A stretch of DNA of 64,000 nt, taken from the NCBI RefSeq assembly GCF_016863135.1, contig NZ_BOOH01000010.1, forward strand, positions 1 through 64,000, read 5' to 3'. The stretch is from Planobispora longispora (GTDB lineage: Bacteria; Actinomycetota; Actinomycetes; Streptosporangiales; Streptosporangiaceae). Made by a program: the position numbers and the translations under genes. This document shows positions 50,454 to 62,122 of the stretch, piece by piece. How positions within the stretch are numbered: position 1 is the first letter of the stretch; each line of letters starts with the position of its first letter. Under the pieces are notes generated by a model that saw only the letters and a program-made list of their open reading frames with translations, had not been told where the DNA came from and did not search any database.

Positions 50454-51171
50454 CACCCGCCCGGGCTGCTATCGATCACGGGCTCTCTTGTAGATCATTT
50501 CAGTCCGGGCGGTCTACCACTCCGATGACCGGCGGGAGATCCTCCTCGCCGAATCCGCTCCCGGCCGTCGGCGGCGTGCTCCCGCGCCCGCACGCGGTGG
50601 TGCTCGCCCACCAGCGAAGGCGCGACCCGCCCGGATCGCTCATGCCCGACTCGCCCACTGATCCGCCGCCGCGGGATCGATTTGCGCCATCGGCCCGTCA
50701 GGCTTCGATGGGGACGACGACGAGCACTGCCAATGCGGAGAAAGGCCGTCCCTTTTCCGGCGCCTGCGGTGATGTAGGTCTCGAACGGCTGAAGCGACCG
50801 GCGCGGGGCCTTGTTCCACCCGCACCCGGTGAATAACCGGTGGAGTGTTCCGTCTGCCGTACTCGTCGCCCGGAGGCGGAACCCGCTGACCCGGCAAGGC
50901 GCTGCCGACGTGCGCGCCCGAGCTCAATTCGATGGAGAGCGACCGGGCGCCTCCCGGCCGTGGCGGGCCTTGTTGGAATTTATGAGTCACCCGATAACCG
51001 GAACCCGATCCCGCGGCAGAGGTCTTCTGCGGGAATCTCCAGGTATTGATCTTCGGCAAAGCGCCTGCCAGTATGTCCAATGTCCGGACTGATCATGAAG
51101 AAAGCCATCCAGATAGCCTCTTCTGCGACTATCGCTTCCTTTGGTCGCAGCGCTTCAGGAGAAAGGCTACC
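50454..51171. other. Intergenic region without supported genes
   Basis: In this 718-bp stretch all open frames lack recognisable domains and good starts. Base composition falls towards A/T after about 50980, marking the change from the AftD locus to the secretome region. CCGGT/ACCGG around GAATA (about 50829-50843) is the only small inverted repeat noted. The promoter for the 51172 gene should lie in 51050-51150. Confidence 0.5.
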
Positions 51172-54100
51172 ATGCGTAAATCCGTCGTTACATTAACGAT
51201 GATCATGGCTCTGTCCGCAGGACAGTTTATGGGCTCGGCATCTGTCAGCGCCTCTGCCTCGTCTTCGGAGACGGCCGCCGTTGGGGACGGCCGCGGCTCG
51301 CTGCCGTATGGCGGTTCTACCGGTCTCGTGACCAATTCGCCCGGGAGGCGGGCGGAAATCCCCGCCCAGCAGGGGAGTGCTTCCGAAGGACTCCGCATCG
51401 CCGATGTCACGCTCGACCTGAGCGAGGATGGACGCACGGCAGTCATAGAATTGACGGCCCACGCGCCGGTTTCAGACGCATCGATCCGGGTGGGCTCCCA
51501 CCGCGGCGGCGTGTCGGCGCATATCGGCACCGCGCCTCTGGGGGATCTGCAGGCAGGGCAGTCCGTGCAACGCTCCATGGAGTTGCCGGAGTTCGCCGAG
51601 GGGGATACCGGGATCCTTGCGCAGGTGTTCACCGGTCCCGACGGAGCGGATTCTCAGTTCATTGCGGTGCGCAACGGGTCCCACGGAATCGTCACGGCCA
51701 TCAGCTTCGAAGGTCTCGCAGAGGCCGAACTCCAGCAGAAATTGAAGCTGGGCCTGCTGTCGGAGGACGAGTTCCAGGCGGAGGCGCTCAAACTTCACGC
51801 CGTTCCGGCTGCCGATCCGTCGTCGATCAAAGTCGCGCCGTTGCCGGACGAGAATCAGTCGCTCACCGCCGCGGCGGATCAGGTGACAATCAGCGGTACG
51901 GTGACTTATCTCGACCGGAATGGCATCAAAAGGCCAGTTCGGAATGCTCGGCTTGAGTTGGTCTCGACCAGCGGACTACCGGGACATGAAATCGGTAGAA
52001 CCAGTGGAACGGGCACCTTCAACGCAACCGTCGTGGACTTCAGAGCCGGCGAGTACATGCTCAAGGTCGTCACGGACAACGAGGTGGGGGTCATCCACAC
52101 GGGAAACGATTCCAACCCGTACTACGTGGCCTCCGGTCCCTATAGATGGTCGCCGGGAAACGCTTACTCCAGTGTGAACGTCGACATCGCCAACAACACT
52201 GATACGGGCAGGTCTTTCGCGCTGCTGGACGCCCTGCGCACAGTCGGGGCCCACTATCAGAGCATCCGCCGCTCCGACTGGCAGTCGAAGCTCCTCGTGA
52301 TCTACCCGGCCACCGGTTCCCGGATGAGCGGAGGAGTCATCTACACCGGAGGCAGCTCGCTCATCTGCTCCAGCGGCGGGGACCACTGCAACGAGGACGC
52401 CTTCGACTGGACCGTTCTCGCGCACGAGGCGGGACACGTGGTCGCGGACGAGGGAGGCTTCGTCTCCAGCCCCGGAGGAAGCCACGGTATCTGTGACAAC
52501 GCCTGGCAGGGCAGCAGGACGAAACAAGACGCCCTCGGCCTCGCCTGGAGCGAAGGCTGGGCTTCGTTCTACGGGTTGCAGGCGCTGCAGGCGCAGGGAG
52601 TGCCGGCGGGCATCCCGAATTACTCCCCGACGGTTTACCACGACGGCTCGATCTCGCCCCCGAACCCGTCGACGGTCGTGTTCTTCTACAACATCGAGAC
52701 GGCGAACGCGGCCAGCGGCGCCGGCGCCCTCACCTGCGCGCCGACCGGTGAGGACAGCGAACTGGCCGTTCAACGAGTGCTGTGGGACCTCTACGACTCC
52801 CAAGTCGATGCCGACTCCGGAGAGACGGCCGCCTGGGGGACGATGAACGACATCATCACCAAGCTCACCGCTGATGGTTCCACCACGTTCTCGGCCGCCT
52901 ACAAGGCGCTCAGCGCCGGCCGCAACTGGCAGGACCGCAAGGCGGGGCAGAAGGTGCTGGCCGCGCACGGCATGGGGCCCAAGACTGTCACGGTCGGCAC
53001 GACGTCCCCTCCGACCATCAGCTGGAGTCCCGCCGGTGGGACTTCCAACCACCCCAACAACCGTTTCGAGGTGCAGTTCGTCGATCCGGCCAACGGGCAA
53101 TCGATCAAATCTGTGACGGTCGCCACCACCACGTATACGCCCACCTTGCAGGAGTGGAACCAGATCACGATCGGCCGACCGGGTCTGGCGGTGCAGGTGG
53201 GAGGACGGCAGGCCACCGCCCCGGCGACGGGGCCATACTTCAGCGAGCCGGTGAACATCACCCCCACCGGCAACGGGGGGAAAATCATGGTGGTCGGCGA
53301 TTCGATCACCAACGGCCATGAAGGGGACTACACCTGGAGATATCGCCTGGCCAAGCACTTCGCCGCCAACAGTCTGAATGTGGACTTCGTCGGTCCCTAC
53401 CGCGGCACGTTCAACATGTACGCCAAGGACACCTCGGCCACCTACCGCGACGGGAACTTCGACAGCGACCATTTCTCACTGTGGGGATGGCACTACGCAG
53501 ACGCCAAGAACAAAATCCGAGGGATGGTGCAGACCTATAAGCCCGACTATCTCGCCGTGGCGCTCGGCTTCAACGACATCGCCTGGTACGGCGGAGCCGA
53601 CAGCACCATCACCTCGATGAGAGATTTCATCGCCGAGGCACGGGCCGCCAACCCCGACCTCAAGATTCTCGTCTCCAATGTGGTCAACCGCTCAGAGTTG
53701 GACGGCTGGTCGTGGCTGAATCCGGCGATCTCCGACTACAAGGCCAAGCTTCCCGGTGTGGTGACATCCCTGAGCACGACTCGATCACCGATCCATGTGG
53801 TGGACGTCAACAGCACCTTCAACCATGCGAGTGACGCCTACGACGGCTTGCACCCCAACGGGGTCGGCGAATACAAGATCGCCAAGGCGTTCGCCGACGC
53901 CTTCGCCACCCGTTTCGCGATCGGTTCGGCCTTCGGCTCCGTCCCCTCCAGCGTGCCCGGCATCACCTTGACGGCACCCGGGTGGGCGACGGCCCAGGTG
54001 GTTCCGGAGGGCATCCAGCTCAAGTGGGCCAGGGTCTACGGAGCCGGCGGATATTACATCCACACACGTGATGTGACGGCGGGCGAGCCGTTCCACAAAC

Positions 54101-54960
54101 TGCCCTACCCCATCGCCGGCGACAACTGGCTGTCCGGAGGTCTGATCAAGGGGCACACCTACGAATACAGGATCACCGCCGCTCACGGCACTCAGGAGAG
54201 CGCGGCCTCGCCGATCGCCTCAGGGGTGGCCAACCCGCAGACTCCTCCCCAGACCGAGGGCGTGAAACTGATTCCGGGCCAGACCAGCGTCGAGGTGACC
54301 TGGAAGCCGACCCCGGGGGCGACGAAGTACGAGGTCTACGGGCAGGACCAGACCACCGGAGCCTGGCTGCCCACGGTCACCGTCACCGGGACCAGCTACA
54401 CCTACACCGGGCTGGCTACCGACCACCGCTACAACATCGCTGTCGCCGGCGTCAACGCCGTCGGAGCCGGCGCGCCCGGAGGAGCCCTGCCCGCTCACAC
54501 CGGTCGCGGCGCGCCCCCCGCGGTCACCGGGGTCGACACCTGGCAGATCGGCCCGGCCGAGGCCCGGATCGAATGGAACCCCTCCTACGGCGCGATCGGC
54601 TACTGGATCGAGTACCTCGACCACACCCAGGCCAGTCCCACCTGGAGCCGCATGCCCTATCCCCTGGACGCCGCAACCCTCGATCCCGGATTCAGCGCGG
54701 GCTACCTGTTCAGCGGACCCACCAACTACAGTTTCCGGATCGTCGCCGCCAACGGCGGGCTGGAAGCCGCAGCCTCGGCGCCCGCCCGGGTCCGCCCGCA
54801 GAACCTTGCCGCCTCCCGGACGCTGACCGACAAGGAACTGGCGAAACTCCGCAAGGCTTCAAAGGAGGCGGGATACCTCTTCAAGCGGCTGCCGGACTCG
54901 GCATTCGGCGTCCCGCCGCAGAATGCCGGAGACTGCTACTGCCTGCAAGGCCGGCGTTAG
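51172..54960 (+). CDS. Secreted modular protein: metallopeptidase, SGNH hydrolase and FnIII domains
   Basis: The 1262-residue protein starts at ATG 51172 (AGGAGAAAGG upstream) with a signal peptide ending near SASVSASA. An uncharacterised N-terminal part (about 50-225) and an Ig/carboxypeptidase-regulatory-like domain (about 235-330) follow. A zinc peptidase domain has HEAGH at 418-422 and a downstream SEGWASFYG whose Glu is the likely third ligand. The SGNH/GDSL esterase domain (about 705-920) has GDSIT with Ser711, GFND and DGLHPN with Asp891/His894. About three fibronectin type III repeats (925-1220) precede a Cys-containing tail DCYCLQGRR. Both catalytic sets look complete. It should be exported and could cleave protein and remove acyl groups from a matrix. 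The combination is unusual. Codon use is less GC-extreme than in upstream genes. Confidence 0.85.
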   Translation: MRKSVVTLTMIMALSAGQFMGSASVSASASSSETAAVGDGRGSLPYGGSTGLVTNSPGRRAEIPAQQGSASEGLRIADVTLDLSEDGRTAVIELTAHAPVSDASIRVGSHRGGVSAHIGTAPLGDLQAGQSVQRSMELPEFAEGDTGILAQVFTGPDGADSQFIAVRNGSHGIVTAISFEGLAEAELQQKLKLGLLSEDEFQAEALKLHAVPAADPSSIKVAPLPDENQSLTAAADQVTISGTVTYLDRNGIKRPVRNARLELVSTSGLPGHEIGRTSGTGTFNATVVDFRAGEYMLKVVTDNEVGVIHTGNDSNPYYVASGPYRWSPGNAYSSVNVDIANNTDTGRSFALLDALRTVGAHYQSIRRSDWQSKLLVIYPATGSRMSGGVIYTGGSSLICSSGGDHCNEDAFDWTVLAHEAGHVVADEGGFVSSPGGSHGICDNAWQGSRTKQDALGLAWSEGWASFYGLQALQAQGVPAGIPNYSPTVYHDGSISPPNPSTVVFFYNIETANAASGAGALTCAPTGEDSELAVQRVLWDLYDSQVDADSGETAAWGTMNDIITKLTADGSTTFSAAYKALSAGRNWQDRKAGQKVLAAHGMGPKTVTVGTTSPPTISWSPAGGTSNHPNNRFEVQFVDPANGQSIKSVTVATTTYTPTLQEWNQITIGRPGLAVQVGGRQATAPATGPYFSEPVNITPTGNGGKIMVVGDSITNGHEGDYTWRYRLAKHFAANSLNVDFVGPYRGTFNMYAKDTSATYRDGNFDSDHFSLWGWHYADAKNKIRGMVQTYKPDYLAVALGFNDIAWYGGADSTITSMRDFIAEARAANPDLKILVSNVVNRSELDGWSWLNPAISDYKAKLPGVVTSLSTTRSPIHVVDVNSTFNHASDAYDGLHPNGVGEYKIAKAFADAFATRFAIGSAFGSVPSSVPGITLTAPGWATAQVVPEGIQLKWARVYGAGGYYIHTRDVTAGEPFHKLPYPIAGDNWLSGGLIKGHTYEYRITAAHGTQESAASPIASGVANPQTPPQTEGVKLIPGQTSVEVTWKPTPGATKYEVYGQDQTTGAWLPTVTVTGTSYTYTGLATDHRYNIAVAGVNAVGAGAPGGALPAHTGRGAPPAVTGVDTWQIGPAEARIEWNPSYGAIGYWIEYLDHTQASPTWSRMPYPLDAATLDPGFSAGYLFSGPTNYSFRIVAANGGLEAAASAPARVRPQNLAASRTLTDKELAKLRKASKEAGYLFKRLPDSAFGVPPQNAGDCYCLQGRR

Positions 54961-55018: not shown

Positions 55019-55140
55019 TGTGCGGACCTCGTGTCCTGATGGTCTCCGAGTACCAGAACTTATGATCGGGTCAGCGCAGACCGCGGCTGACCGACATGCT
55101 TCCGGAGACGTATGTCGTCTCACTAGCGCGAGGAGGTCCC

Positions 55141-55602
55141 ATGCCGAAGCGGTGGAAGCTCCGCATGCTGGCATGCGCGACTGCGACGGCGGCGGCACTG
55201 TCCGGATGCGCGGAACCGGTCGTCTGCAAGCCGTGTCCTGGAAACAGGGTGCAGCTGACCGCGCATCAATCGATCGTAAGGCCCGATCACACGTATGAAC
55301 TGTGTGACGCACGCGGCGTCTGCAGTGAAGGCCAGGTGGCAGCTTCCGGACCGTCCGGCTCTCCCACCCCTGCCGCGGGGACCGGTGCCACAGCTGGAAC
55401 CCAGCTTCCCGTCGCCGTCGTCAATCTCCCCGGAGACGCCACCGGCTACTCGCGTATGTCCGTCCAGGCCGTCATCAAGGATGCGAGGGGACGGATCATC
55501 GGTGAAGGAGAAGCCACCTTCCCCGAGTACCCGCAAGTCGAATCCGAGCCGTGTCACTGCTACAACGCGTTTGTCCAGGTGGATATCTATCCCAGGTCGT
55601 GA
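55141..55602 (+). CDS. Cysteine-rich lipoprotein of unknown function
   Basis: The 153-residue product begins MPKRWKLRMLACATATAAAL with lipobox LSGC (Cys23). The mature part opens EPVVCKPCPGN, continues through YELCDARGVCSEG and a Ser/Pro/Gly-rich linker, then a beta-rich domain with VQAVIKDARGRIIGEGEATF. It ends with PCHCYNAFVQVDIYPRS. Six mature cysteines after Cys23, in CxxC and CxC arrangements, suggest disulfides or redox exchange outside the cell. GGAGG lies 5 bases before the ATG at 55141; an upstream in-frame start is not supported. It lies between the giant metallopeptidase gene and the fulvocin-like gene, with which it is convergent. Confidence 0.75.
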   Translation: MPKRWKLRMLACATATAAALSGCAEPVVCKPCPGNRVQLTAHQSIVRPDHTYELCDARGVCSEGQVAASGPSGSPTPAAGTGATAGTQLPVAVVNLPGDATGYSRMSVQAVIKDARGRIIGEGEATFPEYPQVESEPCHCYNAFVQVDIYPRS

Positions 55603-55757: not shown

Positions 55758-56774
55758 TTAATAGCAGATCCATCCTTGGGTGGTGCGTGCACAGCACATT
55801 CCATTGCACGGCCAGACCCATCCTGGACCGCATCCCATTCCGGATGAGGAGCAGCTGTACGCCCCCCGACGGCAGGGCTGGTAGCTCGGGCAGTTGTTGG
55901 GGAGGTCGGCCGAGCAGCCGCAATCGCTTGCCGCGGCGAGAGTCGATTGATCCGATGCGATATGAGGCTTCTGGGGGCCTAGGTTGGACAGCAAGGCATG
56001 AGCCTCATCGGCACCGAAGGCGGCAATAGCCGCAGTATTCAGCGACTGAAGTTTGTCGTATGTCTCCTCAGTCGGCAGAACAGCGAAGGTAGTGACGTCG
56101 CGATACAGCTCTAGAGCAGTCCTGATCACTTCTTGCTGCTCGGCGCTCATATTCGGGTGTGATTGCCGATACCTCTGGACATGGGTGACCCAGAGATTGC
56201 TGCGGACCTTGGGAGAGAGTTCGGTGAAGATGGCCTGACGGTGCGACAGGTCGTGTGCGCTGAACGCCTCGTAGGTCTGTGGAAGATTCGCCTTATTCGC
56301 TTCGACCCACGCCTCGGCAGGCGAAGGGGAGTCCGAAGCGGCCTGGGCGAGCGATGTCCTGCCGGCGATCACGGATACGGCGATTCCGAGGCCGGCGGTC
56401 CGGAGGAAGCGGCGACGGCCCGAGGCGGCGCCGGAATGGGCGTCGTCATGCCTCTCCGCCTCCTTCCGCGCTTCGCCGAGCGCGGCCAGCAGGCCGTACG
56501 TCCCGCGGAATCCCAGCCGGGAGGCGAGTCGAATCGCCATGGCCGGGCCCGTCCACGCGCGTACATCAGCATCATCGACCCTGATGAGAGTGGGGGCGTA
56601 CGGCGCGTCTTCGCCGAGCGCCTGTTTCCTCCACGTGACGACGTTGGGGTGTGTCAGCGGAATTATTCCGAGACGATTACCGCTGAATTTCTTCACTTTG
56701 TCGGCGAGTCCTCGGCATTGGCCACAGGACGCGTCGAAAGCGAGAATCCACTGGGATTTTGAATTTTCCTTCAT
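55758..56774 (-). CDS. Fulvocin C-related bacteriocin-like protein with DCC/thioredoxin-like N-terminus and internal Tat motif
   Basis: The 338-residue protein starts at ATG 56774 (GGAG 8 bases upstream). Residues 1-100 resemble a DCC/DUF393 thiol-disulfide domain, with DASCGQCRGLADKV giving Cys17/Cys20. Residues 120-146 read RRRFLRTAGLGIAVSVIAG, a twin-arginine-like export segment placed internally. A helical region (about 150-280) follows. The last 55 residues contain ten cysteines, with CGCSADLPNNCPSYQPC, SCSSSGMGCGPGWVW and PCNGMCC. This tail follows the cysteine spacing and the GCGxGWV core of fulvocin C, a 45-residue myxobacterial bacteriocin. Release by cleavage before residue 284 is inferred. 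An in-frame ATG at 56792 is less likely. Confidence 0.82.
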   Translation of the reverse strand: MKENSKSQWILAFDASCGQCRGLADKVKKFSGNRLGIIPLTHPNVVTWRKQALGEDAPYAPTLIRVDDADVRAWTGPAMAIRLASRLGFRGTYGLLAALGEARKEAERHDDAHSGAASGRRRFLRTAGLGIAVSVIAGRTSLAQAASDSPSPAEAWVEANKANLPQTYEAFSAHDLSHRQAIFTELSPKVRSNLWVTHVQRYRQSHPNMSAEQQEVIRTALELYRDVTTFAVLPTEETYDKLQSLNTAAIAAFGADEAHALLSNLGPQKPHIASDQSTLAAASDCGCSADLPNNCPSYQPCRRGAYSCSSSGMGCGPGWVWPCNGMCCARTTQGWICY

Positions 56775-57135
56775 GGTGTTTTCTCCGTGCATGTACGCCT
56801 ATGTGACAAATGGAATCTATGAGGCCGTCAAATTCATGTCAAGTGGCAATGAATGTGAAATCATCTCAAGTCGATCACGTCGTTTCCGGTGTGCGTGTGA
56901 ACTCTTTCCGGGCATGCCTGCAGGATGCGGGACAGATTAACGATGTGAAACCGATCCTCGTCTCAGCGTGCGCCGCAAGGGCTGAGGAGGAGAGCGGTGT
57001 CGCCGTCGTCCAATGAAACGCAGGGAGCTCGGGAGCACCGCCGTGAACGATGCCGGATGCTCACGGCGGCCTCCCCGAGAAACTTCGCTGCCGGGTGTGA
57101 CAGCGACCTGGTTGTGACGCCCGCCGACTATGGGA
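56775..57135. other. A/T-rich intergenic region between fulvocin-like gene and giant metallopeptidase gene
   Basis: No gene is supported here. The part near 56790-56890 is clearly A/T-rich for this genome and should hold the promoter of the minus-strand fulvocin-like gene. The part near 57030-57070 holds a hairpin that could end the 57136-61044 transcript. Confidence 0.5.
57038..57069 (-). terminator. Hairpin downstream of the giant metallopeptidase/propeller gene
   Basis: CCGCCGTGA and TCACGGCGG form a perfect 9-bp stem with a 14-base loop, 67 bp past the minus-strand stop. Confidence 0.55.
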
Positions 57136-60100
57136 TCAGGGAACCCATGAGCAGGCGGTGTTGGATTTGGCGCTTGCGCCGCCCATGTTCTCGGCGGTCA
57201 TCTGGAAGCAGTAGTACTCGCCGCCGGCGAGGGGCGAGACGAGGGCGCTGCGACTGTCCTCTCCCCAGGGACCGATCTTGGTTGGTGGTTGGGACCCGGT
57301 CCAATAATGGATGTAGTAATGGACGCCGCTGGACGGGTAGGTGACCCCGTTCCAGGACACCTTGACAGTGTTGGCTCCGGATCCGGTGGCCGTCACCCCG
57401 GTGGGCGCGGCGGGCTTCGTCACCTGAACGACCTTGCTCTCAGTGTTCGATCTGCGGCCCTCGATCGCATTCTTGGTGCTGGAGAAGGGCACGACGTACC
57501 ACTCGAAGGTGTGTCCGTGGTTCCACGGCCCGCCGATGGGATCCACCCGGGCTTCCGGCTTGTTGGTCCACAACTCGTACTTCTTCCAGCTTTCCCCCAC
57601 CGTGGCGTCACGGTGCCAGATCCAGTACCACACCCCCTGGCCCACGTCGTCCCATTTGAGATTGACGTGTCCCTGAGGTTGGACGGTCGCTGCGAGACCG
57701 CTGGCCTGGCGATCCTGGAGCCTGGGACATCCACCGTTGCTCCGCTGCGGCTCGATCTCGTTGTCATACCAGGAATTGTCCGGAGCCAGCGCGGACATTC
57801 CCACCGCCGTACGGGTCTCCTCGGCGGGTGGGAGCTTGCCGTCGGGCGGCGGGGGCGGCGCGTTGGGCGGACGACCGGTATCGGTGAAGGCGGGCGGATG
57901 GATACCCCGCCCGACGGCGGTTTCCTGGGGCGGTGGGTCCTGAGGAACTGCTGCCGCCGACGGGGCTTCCAGGACAGGGGACACCGTCCGCGGGGCGACG
58001 GGCGAGAAGAAGGCCGTTATGGGGACGTCGATGAACCGGGGCTGGTAGGTCTCGGGGTAATAGTCCGTCCTGATGCGGCAGCCGATGTTCACCGCGCTGG
58101 TGTTGACGTTGTAGGAGATCACCACCCTGCTCGGATCCGATGACAGTCCAGGGTGGATGCGCGCCTCGTAGATCGCATAGAAGTTCGGGCTGGTGTGAGC
58201 CTCCGGCGGGGAGTACAAAGTCACCCGGGTGTTGGTGAACCCCCACGGCGTCCTCGACGGATTGGCCGCGATCGTGCCCGGCGTGACGTGCGGATCGGCA
58301 TGGTGGATCAGCCAGAACTGGTCGTTGATGTGGGCGACGCTGAAGCCTCCCTCGGCCAGCGGACCCAGGGGCCGGGAAGCCGAGCAGGATGTCCCCCACT
58401 GGGGATTCCCGGCGGCGTCGGTTCCGCTGAAGTAACGCCAGGAGGACTCATCGGTCAGGTCGGCGGAGATCGGGGTGCGGGCGACGAAGATCCGCTTGCC
58501 GAAGGTGGCCTTGGACTCGAACCCATAGATGTAGGTGTAATCACCCTGGTCCACCAGCGCCGTGCCCCAGATGATGGGATACGGCGCCGCGACGAAGCAG
58601 TCGGCCAGTGCTTCCGGAGTCTTCTTGACGACGGTGTTGTTCTCCAACTCGTCGATGGAGAACGTCGTGACCGCGCCGCGCGTGTGTTCGTCCGCGATGC
58701 CCTTGTAGTAGAACTTCACGACCCGGTCGCCCTGGACCTTGGCGTCGCCCGTCCAGTACTGCGAGCCCTGGCCGACCGGTGTGTGAGCGTAGCGGGACCA
58801 GAAGTCGATCGAGGTGTCGGTCTCCTTGCAGGTGTTGCCGCCGGTGATCGTGCGCAGGCTCGAACCGTTCTGGACGACGATCGAGTTCCGGATGAAGCTG
58901 GTCTCGAACCCGCCCGGCCGCTTGCCGGGGCTGCCGAGGATGGTGTCGGAGAAGAACCAGGCACGCTTACCGGAGGGCAGCTTCACCGACTGCGTGGCGT
59001 CCCCGCCGCTCCAGTCCGCACATCCGGCGGTGCTGGCGTAGTTCTTGAACATGTTGGTGAAGGTGGTGTTGGGACGGACGCCGGCCTCGGTCGTCACGGA
59101 GGCGGTCCAGTTCACCTGTTGTCCAGCTCCCTGGGGCACGGCGGCGCCGTCCGCCCACAGGTCTGTACGGGTTGCGATCAGGGTGACGGTCTCACCTCCC
59201 TGGACTGACAGGAAGAGGTCGTGTTGCAGGTCGTCTCCCCTGGCCTGGGCGCTCACCCAACGCTTGGGCGTCCTGGAGGACAGGTTGTCCCAGGCGATGA
59301 GGAAGTAGGTGAATTCCACCTCGCTGTCGGGTCCCCCTTGATCGGGGGCTGTCACGCGGACCATCATCCGGCCCTGTCCGGTGGCGGGGGGAGACAGCTC
59401 TATATAGGAAGTTCCCCCTGGCCAGACCGTGGTGTATCCGCTGCTTGACCCGCCGCCCCAGGCGAGGCTCTTCTCTGCGGCTCGTGCGGGACGACCGGTC
59501 TTGAGCAGGGCGCGCCAGGTGGTGGATGCATCGGGGTCGACGTAGCCGTCGGATGCGCGAAGGAATGTGCTCAGGTTCGGGGTTGTGCCGGTAAGCCGGT
59601 AGTTGGCTACGGCAAAGCCCTGCAGTTCTGTCCCCAGGTCGCGGCCGTATCCGGCCAGCACCTGTTCGATCGCCTCGATCGGCAGTTTGTTGCCCATCGC
59701 CTGCCAGGTCTTCAGCACGAAGTCGAGACTTGTCCGCTCGGTCAGGTAGCTGGCGAAGATGAACGCCCCGTACTGGCGTTTGGGGCTGGTGCTCCACGGA
59801 TTCAGTGCCGAGTTGAGCGCGAGTTCAGGGTGGTCGAGGAAGAGCGGAAGGTTCCAGGCGTAGGCGTCAGGTTGCGGTCCGGAGGAGTTGATCTGCTTGT
59901 ACAGCGTGTGCGTGGCCCACTCGGCGGTGGCCTCCATCCACCAATTGATCGAGGTCACATTCGCGCCCAGGTGCGCGTTGGACAGGTAGTGGTACTGCAC
60001 CGCGTGGAACATCTCGTGGTAGGGCAGATAGGTGTATTTCCAGTCACGCCGGGTCGAGCTGCCAGGCAGGGGGTCCCCAGGGTCGGCGGGCAGCAGGATC

Positions 60101-61044
60101 ACCGGACCGCCGACAGCATCGCCGGGACCGCCGGTGGGGATGGTGATGCCGGGATGGTTGGGGTTGACGCCGCCGAAGTCGAAGCCGGCGTATATCTGGA
60201 CGCCCTGGCCGGTAAGTCCATAGCCCCAGGATTTGTACCGGGCCCAGGCTTCGGTCAGATTCGTGGTCATGGTGTCCACGGCGTCGGGGACGCCGTTGGC
60301 GTTGGCGTCCATCGCGACGACGCCGTCCACCCGTGCCCAGACTCCGCCACCGTTACCGTTGGACACCCATGCCTCGGACAGGCCGTCGACGTTGTAGTAG
60401 AGGTTGAATTGGGTGGTGGTGGTGACGGTGTGCACACAGTCGAAGTAGCTGCCGGCGAAGGTCGCATGGGTTCTGTGATCACCGCACTCGGTCCACGGTG
60501 AAGGCGGCGCAGCCGAGGATGTCCGTGCCGTTCCGGACGTCGAGCGGGTTGCGGCGGGGTCGGGCTGCCTGAAAGTCTCGGTCAGCCACGCCTTGGTCTC
60601 CGATGACGCCTGCTGCTCGGCCAATTGCAACGCGTAATACAGTGCCAGGCCCGCCTCGTGAGGAATGCCCTCCGCGGAGCGATACTTTTTCGGTACATTT
60701 TCCGGCTGCGTCAGCCGTTCGACCGAGTGGTGTACATACTCGTCGATACTTATCTCGTTGCGTTTCCATGCCTGGGACAGCGGATCCTCGTCACCGAAGT
60801 CCGGCTTCTCGGCCGCGAGTTTCTTGTGCAGCTCGCTTTCCGGCCGTTCGACCAGCTGATACGGTCGGGGTGCATCACTGGGCGGGGTCGGCTGGGGTGA
60901 TGCGGATGTCGCCGGATCCGTGGTGGGAGAAGGTTTCGCGGCGGCGCGGGGGGCCACGGATAACTGCAGGACGCCCGTGAGTAGTCCGGCCACCGCCAAT
61001 ACGACAATCCGTCCTGGGAGGCGGCCTCTGCGAAGTATCGACAA
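57136..61044 (-). CDS. Secreted modular protein: metallopeptidase, DUF4185-like propeller and FnIII domains
   Basis: The 1302-residue protein uses a TTG start at 61044 with AGGAG 6 bases upstream. A signal peptide (RIVVLAVAGLLTGVLQLSV) is followed by a Pro/Thr linker. The peptidase domain has HEMFH at 343-347 and WWMEATAEW about 25-30 residues later, a gluzincin-like zinc site. A beta-sandwich region (about 510-650) follows. The propeller-like domain (about 660-1010) has KRAWFFSDTILGSPG, TSFIRNSIVVQNG, DYTYIYGFESKATFG and YQPRFIDVPI, closely paralleling the protein at 35062. A Pro-rich linker leads to two FnIII-type repeats, the first opening GHVNLKWDDVG. It should be exported and act on extracellular protein or glycan. 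The domain plan parallels the 51172 protein. Confidence 0.82.
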   Translation of the reverse strand: MSILRRGRLPGRIVVLAVAGLLTGVLQLSVAPRAAAKPSPTTDPATSASPQPTPPSDAPRPYQLVERPESELHKKLAAEKPDFGDEDPLSQAWKRNEISIDEYVHHSVERLTQPENVPKKYRSAEGIPHEAGLALYYALQLAEQQASSETKAWLTETFRQPDPAATRSTSGTARTSSAAPPSPWTECGDHRTHATFAGSYFDCVHTVTTTTQFNLYYNVDGLSEAWVSNGNGGGVWARVDGVVAMDANANGVPDAVDTMTTNLTEAWARYKSWGYGLTGQGVQIYAGFDFGGVNPNHPGITIPTGGPGDAVGGPVILLPADPGDPLPGSSTRRDWKYTYLPYHEMFHAVQYHYLSNAHLGANVTSINWWMEATAEWATHTLYKQINSSGPQPDAYAWNLPLFLDHPELALNSALNPWSTSPKRQYGAFIFASYLTERTSLDFVLKTWQAMGNKLPIEAIEQVLAGYGRDLGTELQGFAVANYRLTGTTPNLSTFLRASDGYVDPDASTTWRALLKTGRPARAAEKSLAWGGGSSSGYTTVWPGGTSYIELSPPATGQGRMMVRVTAPDQGGPDSEVEFTYFLIAWDNLSSRTPKRWVSAQARGDDLQHDLFLSVQGGETVTLIATRTDLWADGAAVPQGAGQQVNWTASVTTEAGVRPNTTFTNMFKNYASTAGCADWSGGDATQSVKLPSGKRAWFFSDTILGSPGKRPGGFETSFIRNSIVVQNGSSLRTITGGNTCKETDTSIDFWSRYAHTPVGQGSQYWTGDAKVQGDRVVKFYYKGIADEHTRGAVTTFSIDELENNTVVKKTPEALADCFVAAPYPIIWGTALVDQGDYTYIYGFESKATFGKRIFVARTPISADLTDESSWRYFSGTDAAGNPQWGTSCSASRPLGPLAEGGFSVAHINDQFWLIHHADPHVTPGTIAANPSRTPWGFTNTRVTLYSPPEAHTSPNFYAIYEARIHPGLSSDPSRVVISYNVNTSAVNIGCRIRTDYYPETYQPRFIDVPITAFFSPVAPRTVSPVLEAPSAAAVPQDPPPQETAVGRGIHPPAFTDTGRPPNAPPPPPDGKLPPAEETRTAVGMSALAPDNSWYDNEIEPQRSNGGCPRLQDRQASGLAATVQPQGHVNLKWDDVGQGVWYWIWHRDATVGESWKKYELWTNKPEARVDPIGGPWNHGHTFEWYVVPFSSTKNAIEGRRSNTESKVVQVTKPAAPTGVTATGSGANTVKVSWNGVTYPSSGVHYYIHYWTGSQPPTKIGPWGEDSRSALVSPLAGGEYYCFQMTAENMGGASAKSNTACSWVP

Positions 61045-61303: not shown

Positions 61304-61648
61304 TCAGTCGCCGATCTTCCAGGTCTCTCCGTAGCAGATCGGCGGGCCGTAGGAGTAGCTCTTCCCGCTGGCCGAGCGAGCGATCAGTGTGTCGTCGGCC
61401 GGTGGGTGACTGCATCGCTCGGCAGAGATGCCCATGTCGCTCCCTTCTCCCGGCGGGAGGGTGGCGAAGGGATTCTCGTTACGCTTCCACTGCACGGTGA
61501 CGGTGTCTTGGGTGCCGTTGATGATGTGGAACATCTCTTCGTCGCGGGGAGTGCTGCAGGCGGCGAGGAGAACGATGAGTGCCAGTATCGCGACGCTCGG
61601 TGGAAACCGAGGGGGGGAGATGGGGGACGCGGTACGGCGTGCGTTCAC
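61304..61648 (-). CDS. Small secreted lipoprotein of unknown function
   Basis: The 114-residue product starts at GTG 61648, with GAAAGG 5 bases upstream. A basic N-terminus is followed by VAILALIVLLAAC, with Cys31 as the lipidation site. The mature part, SxPRDEEMFHIINGTQDTVTV, reads like a small beta-sandwich. It contains two further cysteines (AERCSHPP and PPICYGETWKIGD), probably one disulfide. It should be on the outer face of the membrane. The longer open frame up to 61723 has no ribosome-binding site. It is upstream of, and co-directional with, the giant metallopeptidase gene, but 259 bp separates them. Confidence 0.7.
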   Translation of the reverse strand: MNARRTASPISPPRFPPSVAILALIVLLAACSTPRDEEMFHIINGTQDTVTVQWKRNENPFATLPPGEGSDMGISAERCSHPPADDTLIARSASGKSYSYGPPICYGETWKIGD

Positions 61649-62122
61649 GTAGCCTTTCGGAAGCTGCGACGGAGAAACCCTGCCCGGAAGGCTGCCAGAC
61701 GGTGGCTTGATAACGGCCTCCAAGAACCTGATGCCCTGGCGGGAGCAAAATGGCCTGTCCAGTCGGAAGCCTAAAGGACTGAGGTCGGTGAGGACCGGCC
61801 CTGTGAGCCTACCGGCGGCGGCGACGATCCGGAATCAGTGGCCGCGGGGAAGACCGGGATGCCGAACGAAGGACCTCCCCCTGGGGAGGCCGTCGGCCGT
61901 TTATTGTCAGATGGCATCTGTTTTCCCGGTGGACAGACTGGTCGTTGAGGTCGCCGGCGCGGCGGATTCACGAGTCGTCGCAGCGGCAGGTTCACACGGG
62001 ACACTGTCGCCCGGTTCGCATGCTCAGTTTTCGCCCCGCTGCGCGGTGGCGCCTGATCTTGATACCAACCCTTGCCGCCGGCTCCACCGTACGGGCGGCG
62101 GGGCCGGCGGCGGTTCGAGGTG
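61649..62122. other. Intergenic region between small lipoprotein and malectin-domain protein
   Basis: No gene is supported in these 474 bp. A hairpin at 61874-61889 followed by TTTATTGTC is the only clear element. Sequence near 61640-61730 should hold the lipoprotein promoter. Confidence 0.45.
61874..61889. terminator. Compact hairpin with T-rich flank
   Basis: CCTCCCC and GGGGAGG are separated by only two bases (effectively a 6-bp stem with a 4-base loop). TTTATT follows after a GC-rich stretch on the plus strand. It could end the minus-strand gene at 62123 only if read in reverse, so its direction is uncertain. Confidence 0.4.

Follow-up and report, generated by a model that had tools for sequence, protein, structure and literature searches.

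A fulvocin C-related protein of Planobispora longispora with a thioredoxin-type head and an internal signal that also precede other cysteine-rich C-termini

We analysed a stretch of 64,000 nucleotides from Planobispora longispora (the window) and found in it a gene whose 338-residue product, hereafter the window protein, joins a thioredoxin-type CxxC domain and an internal signal to a helical domain and a fulvocin C-like tail. Judged by sequence, this head and signal are a module shared by fulvocin-type and other cysteine-rich cargos; beyond what the family name conveys, their occurrence in front of different cysteine-rich tails hints at a built-in folding and export device. The explanation that we favour, and that we judge about evenly balanced between right and wrong, is that the window protein is a self-equipped precursor, bearing a redox head in cis and a Tat-like signal, from which a disulfide-rich peptide would be secreted.

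Architecture of the window protein and its relation to fulvocin C

An earlier note on this DNA had described a CGQC pair, a twin-arginine-like segment and a fulvocin C-like, ten-cysteine tail in the reading frame at 55758-56774. The coordinates and the ten cysteines in the last 55 residues (284-338) were correct when counted, and the CGQC pair, the RR-like segment at residues 120-125 and the GCGxGWV core (here GCGPGWV) were all found. As the plus-strand frame is interrupted by 5 stops, the gene is read on the minus strand, with the following parts:

55758..56774, minus strand: whole coding sequence of the window protein (P0001), an open reading frame of 338 amino acids plus stop
56783..56786, minus strand: GGAG, a likely ribosome-binding site that precedes the ATG at 56774 by 8 bases
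56466..56756, minus strand: N-terminal thioredoxin-fold domain, residues about 7-103, predicted to be cytoplasmic (alignments, model, fold and profile searches, codon-position pattern)
56715..56726, minus strand: CGQC redox motif, residues 17-20, both cysteines invariant in the alignments
56592..56594, minus strand: Pro61 in APTL, an invariant alignment column; likely the cis-proline of the thioredoxin active site, as expected for the fold
56340..56420, minus strand: internal signal peptide, residues 119-145, with RRRFLR (120-125), 13 uncharged residues and an AQA cleavage site (143-145) (alignments, sub-threshold TIGR02811 match)
55977..56327, minus strand: helical domain, residues about 150-266, mostly inside the NF033852 match
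55926..55976, minus strand: low-confidence linker with Ala residues at its end, residues 267-283, where a second cut would be expected
55761..55925, minus strand: fulvocin C-like tail, residues 284-338; of its ten cysteines, eight belong to the core and two are additional

The predicted model of the whole protein (mean pLDDT 77.8, pTM 0.54) was confident for the head and the helical domain and poor for the linkers and tail, with block means of 35-72 in the linker and tail, and we therefore propose no disulfide pairing for the tail.

By its sequence, the tail is a new member of an already named family. The NCBIfam model NF033852 (bacteriocin fulvocin C-related; curated cut-off 35 bits) matched residues 179-327 with 115.1 bits over model positions 1-149 of 150, and in a genome search the window protein, at 116.7 bits, was the sole match in its 8.8 Mb genome; a Pfam scan gave nothing over cut-off for any part of the protein. 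The window protein shares with this family the helical part and the cysteine-rich tail, whereas its thioredoxin head and internal signal lie outside the match. Fulvocin C is attributed to Tsai and Hirsch (1981), as cited in an excerpt of PMC8708641. Membership in NF033852 does not depend on the fulvocin C sequence that we compared directly.

That sequence, the mature peptide of Myxococcus fulvus rather than its precursor (the relatives searched gave no myxobacterial locus), scored 41.8 bits against a profile of 20 tails, while the best shuffled controls reached 20.3 bits (500 shuffles with cysteine positions kept) and 11.4 bits (500 full shuffles). The 45 residues of the fulvocin C sequence give a computed mass of 4672 with four disulfides, which is the mass reported for fulvocin C. 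Seven of the eight fulvocin C cysteines aligned to core positions of the tail profile, and GCGxGWV and CNG are common to both; in contrast, the tail of the window protein counts ten cysteines and continues beyond CNG, and the fulvocin C sequence lacks the last core cysteine. The likeness to fulvocin C that the earlier note had proposed was thus clear both for the peptide and for its family. The first residue of fulvocin C aligned two residues before the first tail cysteine, which leads us to place a putative second cut in the low-confidence linker. When the mature part of the window protein was compared with solved structures, no profile match was found at E 1, the best Foldseek E was 1.5 and the best VIA Z was 4.5. 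From these searches the helical domain cannot be assigned to a fold family, and the absent match does not show a new fold.

The main alignment set the window protein beside 19 relatives of full length (35-57% identity), and 11 relatives of genus g271 with lost tail cysteines were left out of it. In 20/20 rows the head kept its two cysteines and the Pro and Thr of its cis-Pro loop, the signal its first Arg and the final Ala of AxA, and the tail eight cysteines, indicating that these motifs are more than chance; the window protein has all eight core tail cysteines, plus two extra. These alignments also bore out the earlier idea of an export segment in the middle of the protein; the signal carries an AxA site and lies between the head and the tail part. 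In codon comparisons, the head showed a third-position excess in 6/6 pairs, which fits a translated, selected region, and amino-acid changes per codon were at least as frequent in the tail as in the head in each of the six pairs.

The eleven omitted g271 relatives score over the NF033852 cut-off yet lack several core cysteines, so the eight-cysteine core is no strict rule of that model. Together with L155 of Amycolatopsis they have 4-5 cysteines after the module, 12/12 lack RR and 12/12 keep CxxC, and CxxC and tail cysteines are therefore not strictly coupled. The eleven look derived, since in the tree they group with the intact member L018 with full support (100/96); three g271 genomes (G485, G493, G497) keep intact tails. 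In all eleven (L063-L065, L067-L072, L120, L121), the tail is missing its first and last cysteines and the signal its twin arginine, while CxxC is kept and a PCLSKGC-PFTCG core is conserved; their tails could represent either decay or a new two-disulfide form.

The window protein was matched in 47/341 genomes of its family (its own counted; some by the head or helical part only) and NF033852 in 37/297 genomes of an order sample (its own counted), while an even sample of the phylum gave 3/396, namely its own genome and two below the cut-off; the protein is accordingly locally common and sparse overall. Among three other genomes of the same genus, two had no match and one had a stand-alone helical domain only. 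A contig search with the single window protein as query found nothing, and one with alignment A1 gave 26 loci. The relatives named in the contig search were from Planomonospora, Nonomuraea, Nocardiopsis, Spongiactinospora, Sinosporangium, Streptosporangium, Streptomyces, Halosaccharopolyspora, Asanoa, Actinomadura, Amycolatopsis, Kribbella, Nocardia and Fodinicola, with a partial one in Jiangella. Fifteen plasmid records matched, and in 7/15 the place is annotated as a bacteriocin fulvocin C-related protein; relatives on Streptomyces plasmids bear a name of the NF033852 type in RefSeq. Because RefSeq gives the same name to relatives of the same architecture, the gene is no one-off, and the earlier suggestion of a new architecture in an actinomycete was too strong for a protein that, though sparse overall, is scattered over many Actinomycetia genera. 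Three of the seven annotated plasmid records were inspected, of which one has a start that includes the head and two have starts that skip it, L167:5403-5939 and L168:5256-5960 being annotated with starts that fall within longer open frames in which the thioredoxin head is also encoded. Such starts may be one reason why the head drew little notice.

A thioredoxin-type head shared by several cargos

The best PDB matches of the head were thioredoxins and PDI domains. The best Foldseek E was 0.009, with none at 0.001, and VIA gave Z values of at most 5.5 (rmsd 3.7-4.3 over 78-84 residues in the top four rows), so these likenesses to thioredoxin are at the level of the fold only; a profile search of the head returned thioredoxins at E 0.002. 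The fold, the CxxC and the cis-Pro of a thioredoxin-type oxidoreductase are all present, which supports assigning the head as a thioredoxin-type CxxC domain with a putative redox activity. The 28 rows of alignment A2, which covers head plus signal, have as invariant residues two Cys and one each of Pro, Leu and Arg.

The earlier note had put the CGQC pair in a DCC or thioredoxin-like context, and of the two the thioredoxin likeness held while the DCC likeness proved weak. PF04134 (DCC1-like) had no match in the window protein or elsewhere in its genome, and the resemblance was otherwise confined to hits in two relatives, L093 (17.4 bits) and L133 (19.4 bits), both under the cut-off of 27.8. 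The window head shares a CxxC thioredoxin fold with thioredoxins and the DCC1-like thiol-disulfide oxidoreductases, but nine classical DCC1-like proteins from relatives, examined as a control, had one cysteine in the last 80 residues in 9/9 cases and thus no cysteine-rich tail.

A search of family genomes with the head plus signal profile (A2) found 53 places in 46/338 genomes at E 1e-4. Sorted by eye, they comprised 20 intact fulvocin-type members and 12 poor in tail cysteines, one of the latter frame-shifted. Type B occurred four times (14-16 cysteines after the module), type C four times (8), type D once (11) and type E three times (18), with one type E member interrupted. One further place was at a contig end, one was an interrupted fulvocin-type member and one a broken type C. 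Five stopped short of the signal and lacked a cysteine-rich tail, and L207 had 17 cysteines in its C-terminus and no visible signal. In a class sample, the profile matched 13/296 genomes at E 1e-6. Two further cargos were on plasmids, type F on plasmid 3 of Rubrobacter radiotolerans (L165; 11 cysteines after the module) and type G on a Thermomicrobium roseum plasmid (L166; 16), so that the carriers belong to Actinomycetota and Thermomicrobium.

From 75 distinct profile hits we selected 62 full-length members, the window protein included, by leaving out 13: two at contig edges (L075, L130), the interrupted or partial L053, L137 and two of L203, six that end before the signal (L091, L134, L204, L205, L206, L209), and L207. 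CxxC is present in 62/62; 50/62 have 8-18 cysteines after the module and 12/62 have 4-5. By labels assigned by eye from the printed sequences, 36 intact members and the 12 with few cysteines are fulvocin-type (A), and six other C-terminal types (B to G) make up the rest; type A is over-represented, as the window protein or NF033852 served as query for many of the 62, and the 53 places from the head-only profile search of family genomes are the less biased sample.

Pfam and NCBIfam scans of the type B-G members scanned gave no over-threshold family for their cysteine-rich C-termini. With hhalign, the fulvocin-type part showed no detectable relation to the other cargo types (probability 0.1-6%), while types B and E are probably related (87%) and perhaps G and E (30%); an absent match among types D, F and G says little, as each is a single sequence. 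At least two, and probably more, unrelated export parts thus stand under one head. On the head tree, the cargo labels require 8 changes (minimum 7; shuffles average 24.6), indicating that each cargo type mostly stays with its own head lineage.

The six heads that end before the signal have no cysteine-rich tail. We sought a separate cargo gene for them among same-strand ORFs with at least 5 cysteines in the last 80 residues, up to 1.5 kb downstream, and found three ORFs, at L205 and L209 only, that look like out-of-frame readings. L207:3257-4639 (genome G443) encodes 460 amino acids with a weakly related CxxC head and a glycine- and cysteine-rich C-terminus that has 17 cysteines after the match and ends in CCL; it had no visible export signal and no Pfam or NCBIfam family over cut-off. 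Our searches of open PubMed Central papers gave no description of a redox head and signal as a shared leader, and other literature may hold one.

Gene neighbourhood and stand-alone helical domains

We sought a conserved operon partner by an all-against-all ORF comparison of 59 loci (52 with the anchor gene) and 470 called neighbours, and dropped the argument because recurrent partners occurred mainly in syntenic g271 and a few close relatives. With the neighbours called by a simple GC3 script that may miss genes, no recurrent protease, immunity or transporter gene was seen beside fulvocin-type members, apart from close-relative synteny.

Stand-alone helical domains with neither tail nor signal occur at six or more loci (L078, L079, L080, L081, L082, L111). 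At L111:8532-8921 (also L145:2480-2869, Sinosporangium album), such a copy lies directly downstream of a full-length gene. These domains could be candidate immunity proteins. The redox-head precursors of L165 and L166 both have a gene for an S8 serine peptidase close by, placed second and third upstream, a candidate maturation protease, and response regulator genes are also nearby at both loci.

In the window, two very large secreted-looking proteins flank the gene (51046-54960, plus strand, and 57136-61044, minus strand), both of which have an fn3 domain and an HExxH-like stretch, and one a GDSL lipase domain; homologues lie near the gene in L102 and L105. Two small lipoprotein-like genes (55096-55602, plus strand, and 61304-61723, minus strand) had no Pfam match, and relatives of the latter recur near the gene in the same two loci.

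Export, processing and what the architecture would mean

The order of head, signal, AxA, helical domain, linker and tail agrees with a precursor that exports everything but its head, which remains in the cytoplasm. In bacteria, peptides with many disulfides are either oxidised in a reducing cytoplasm or folded outside. According to an excerpt of PMC6708511, Tat carries folded cargo, its consensus is S-R-R-x-F-L-K with RR close to invariant, and one antibody fragment stayed unexported without cytoplasmic disulfide formation; a reference title in the same source states that other proteins leave by Tat without prior disulfide formation. In our reading, a redox head in cis would meet the need for disulfides before export.

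The signal of the window protein has the RRxFL motif, the short uncharged stretch and the AxA site. TIGR02811 (TAT target) matched residues 116-154 at 19.6 bits and did not reach its cut-off of 48.45; built for N-terminal signals of another protein group, it offers weak evidence at such a score. It also touched the signals of L087 and the Rubrobacter protein below cut-off, as a Rieske TAT-signal model did that of L133, and TIGR01409 gave 15.5 bits in the Thermomicrobium protein (cut-off 16.7). Among the 50 intact members, the second position of the arginine pair made RR in 21, RK in 9 and R with another residue in 20; RR was found in 9/9 members of types C, D, E and G, RS in 4/4 of type B, and RR in none of the 12 low-cysteine members. 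The earlier note had reasoned that its CxxC and RR segments would be chance features if family members lacked them. CxxC is universal among the selected members, and the twin-arginine reading stood for the window protein and only partly for its relatives, so that Tat cannot be assumed for all: members with neither RR nor RK may use Sec or a relaxed Tat, or Tat may not be the route at all.

In the precursor that we propose, the thioredoxin-like head would fold in the cytoplasm and take part in thiol exchange with the cysteine-rich region of its own chain, after which the internal Tat-like signal would take the helical domain and tail across the membrane, by Tat where RR or RK is kept. Signal peptidase would then cut after the conserved AQA, leaving head and signal behind, and a second protease would cut the linker just before the first tail cysteine, a site that presumably corresponds to the start of mature fulvocin C. 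The product, a peptide some 55 residues long that could hold as many as five disulfides, would act as a bacteriocin, and the helical domain may be a propeptide that keeps it inactive or gives immunity. Against this explanation, head and tail would be on opposite sides of the membrane after export, 20/50 intact members have neither RR nor RK, CxxC is kept in all low-cysteine members, L207 has no visible signal, and L074 has a helical part and tail with no head in its 16 kb locus.

Those missing arginine pairs lend themselves to another reading, which we consider unlikely, in which the signal is a Sec-type anchor (N-in/C-out), the tail is exported unfolded and oxidised outside, and the head, for example, holds the precursor reduced or senses redox. 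A conserved first Arg, a hydrophobic stretch and AxA suit Sec equally, and the matches to Tat-signal models, all below their cut-offs, and the absence of RR from the low-cysteine members also favour it; R-x-x-F-L at the first Arg, however, resembles the Tat consensus (excerpt of PMC6708511), and the constant RR of types C, D, E and G and a hydrophobic stretch of only 13 uncharged residues in the window protein likewise speak for Tat. The head itself might be an inherited solubility or targeting domain whose CxxC does not act on the tail, as its CxxC persists above tails of 4-5 cysteines and heads with no signal or cysteine-rich tail exist, but we find this quite doubtful when CxxC is kept in all 62 members whatever the cargo and its Pro partner is invariant in 28/28 rows.

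The product, too, may be something other than a bacteriocin, namely a secreted disulfide-rich domain with another role (a signal, a cell-wall or spore component, part of an enzyme) for which the family name misleads. The tie to activity consists of that name and a sequence match, and an immunity or transport operon was not seen at the loci compared; the close fulvocin C match, the patchy spread among order genomes, the occurrence on plasmids and a tail that changes per codon at least as much as the head in six of six pairs argue against this, and we hold it to be improbable. More tentatively than the self-equipped precursor itself, we suggest as a possibility that the head and signal are a portable leader in cis. 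Its CxxC head would form or proofread the cargo's disulfides in the cytoplasm and clear the folded cargo for Tat, and signal peptidase would then remove it; in Actinomycetota and Thermomicrobiota, two unrelated cysteine-rich cargo families at least, and probably five or more, would have acquired this leader.

Halocin C8 offers a parallel for the second cut; it is cysteine-rich and exported by Tat, and its precursor is not known to have a thioredoxin head. An excerpt of PMC12893001 states that the HalH4 and halocin C8 precursors of haloarchaea are cut to release an active C-terminal fragment, as we propose for the window protein, and a reference title there gives production and immunity from one gene for halocin C8. 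Halocin C8 differs in being archaeal and a different peptide, and is likened here by description and not by sequence; NCBIfam scans of the window protein and other scanned members listed no halocin model at E 1. CyDisCo follows the same logic of making disulfides in the cell and exporting the folded product by Tat (excerpt of PMC6708511), but it is engineered and works in trans, whereas the window protein fuses a thiol domain in cis to signal and cargo.

If the portable-leader reading is right, it would define a kind of bacteriocin precursor whose leader is itself a redox enzyme, and with a CxxC leader common to dissimilar cysteine-rich cargos, a single gene would naturally solve the problem of disulfide folding. 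The head also serves as a genome-mining handle for cysteine-rich C-termini that, in the type B-G members scanned, Pfam and NCBIfam miss.
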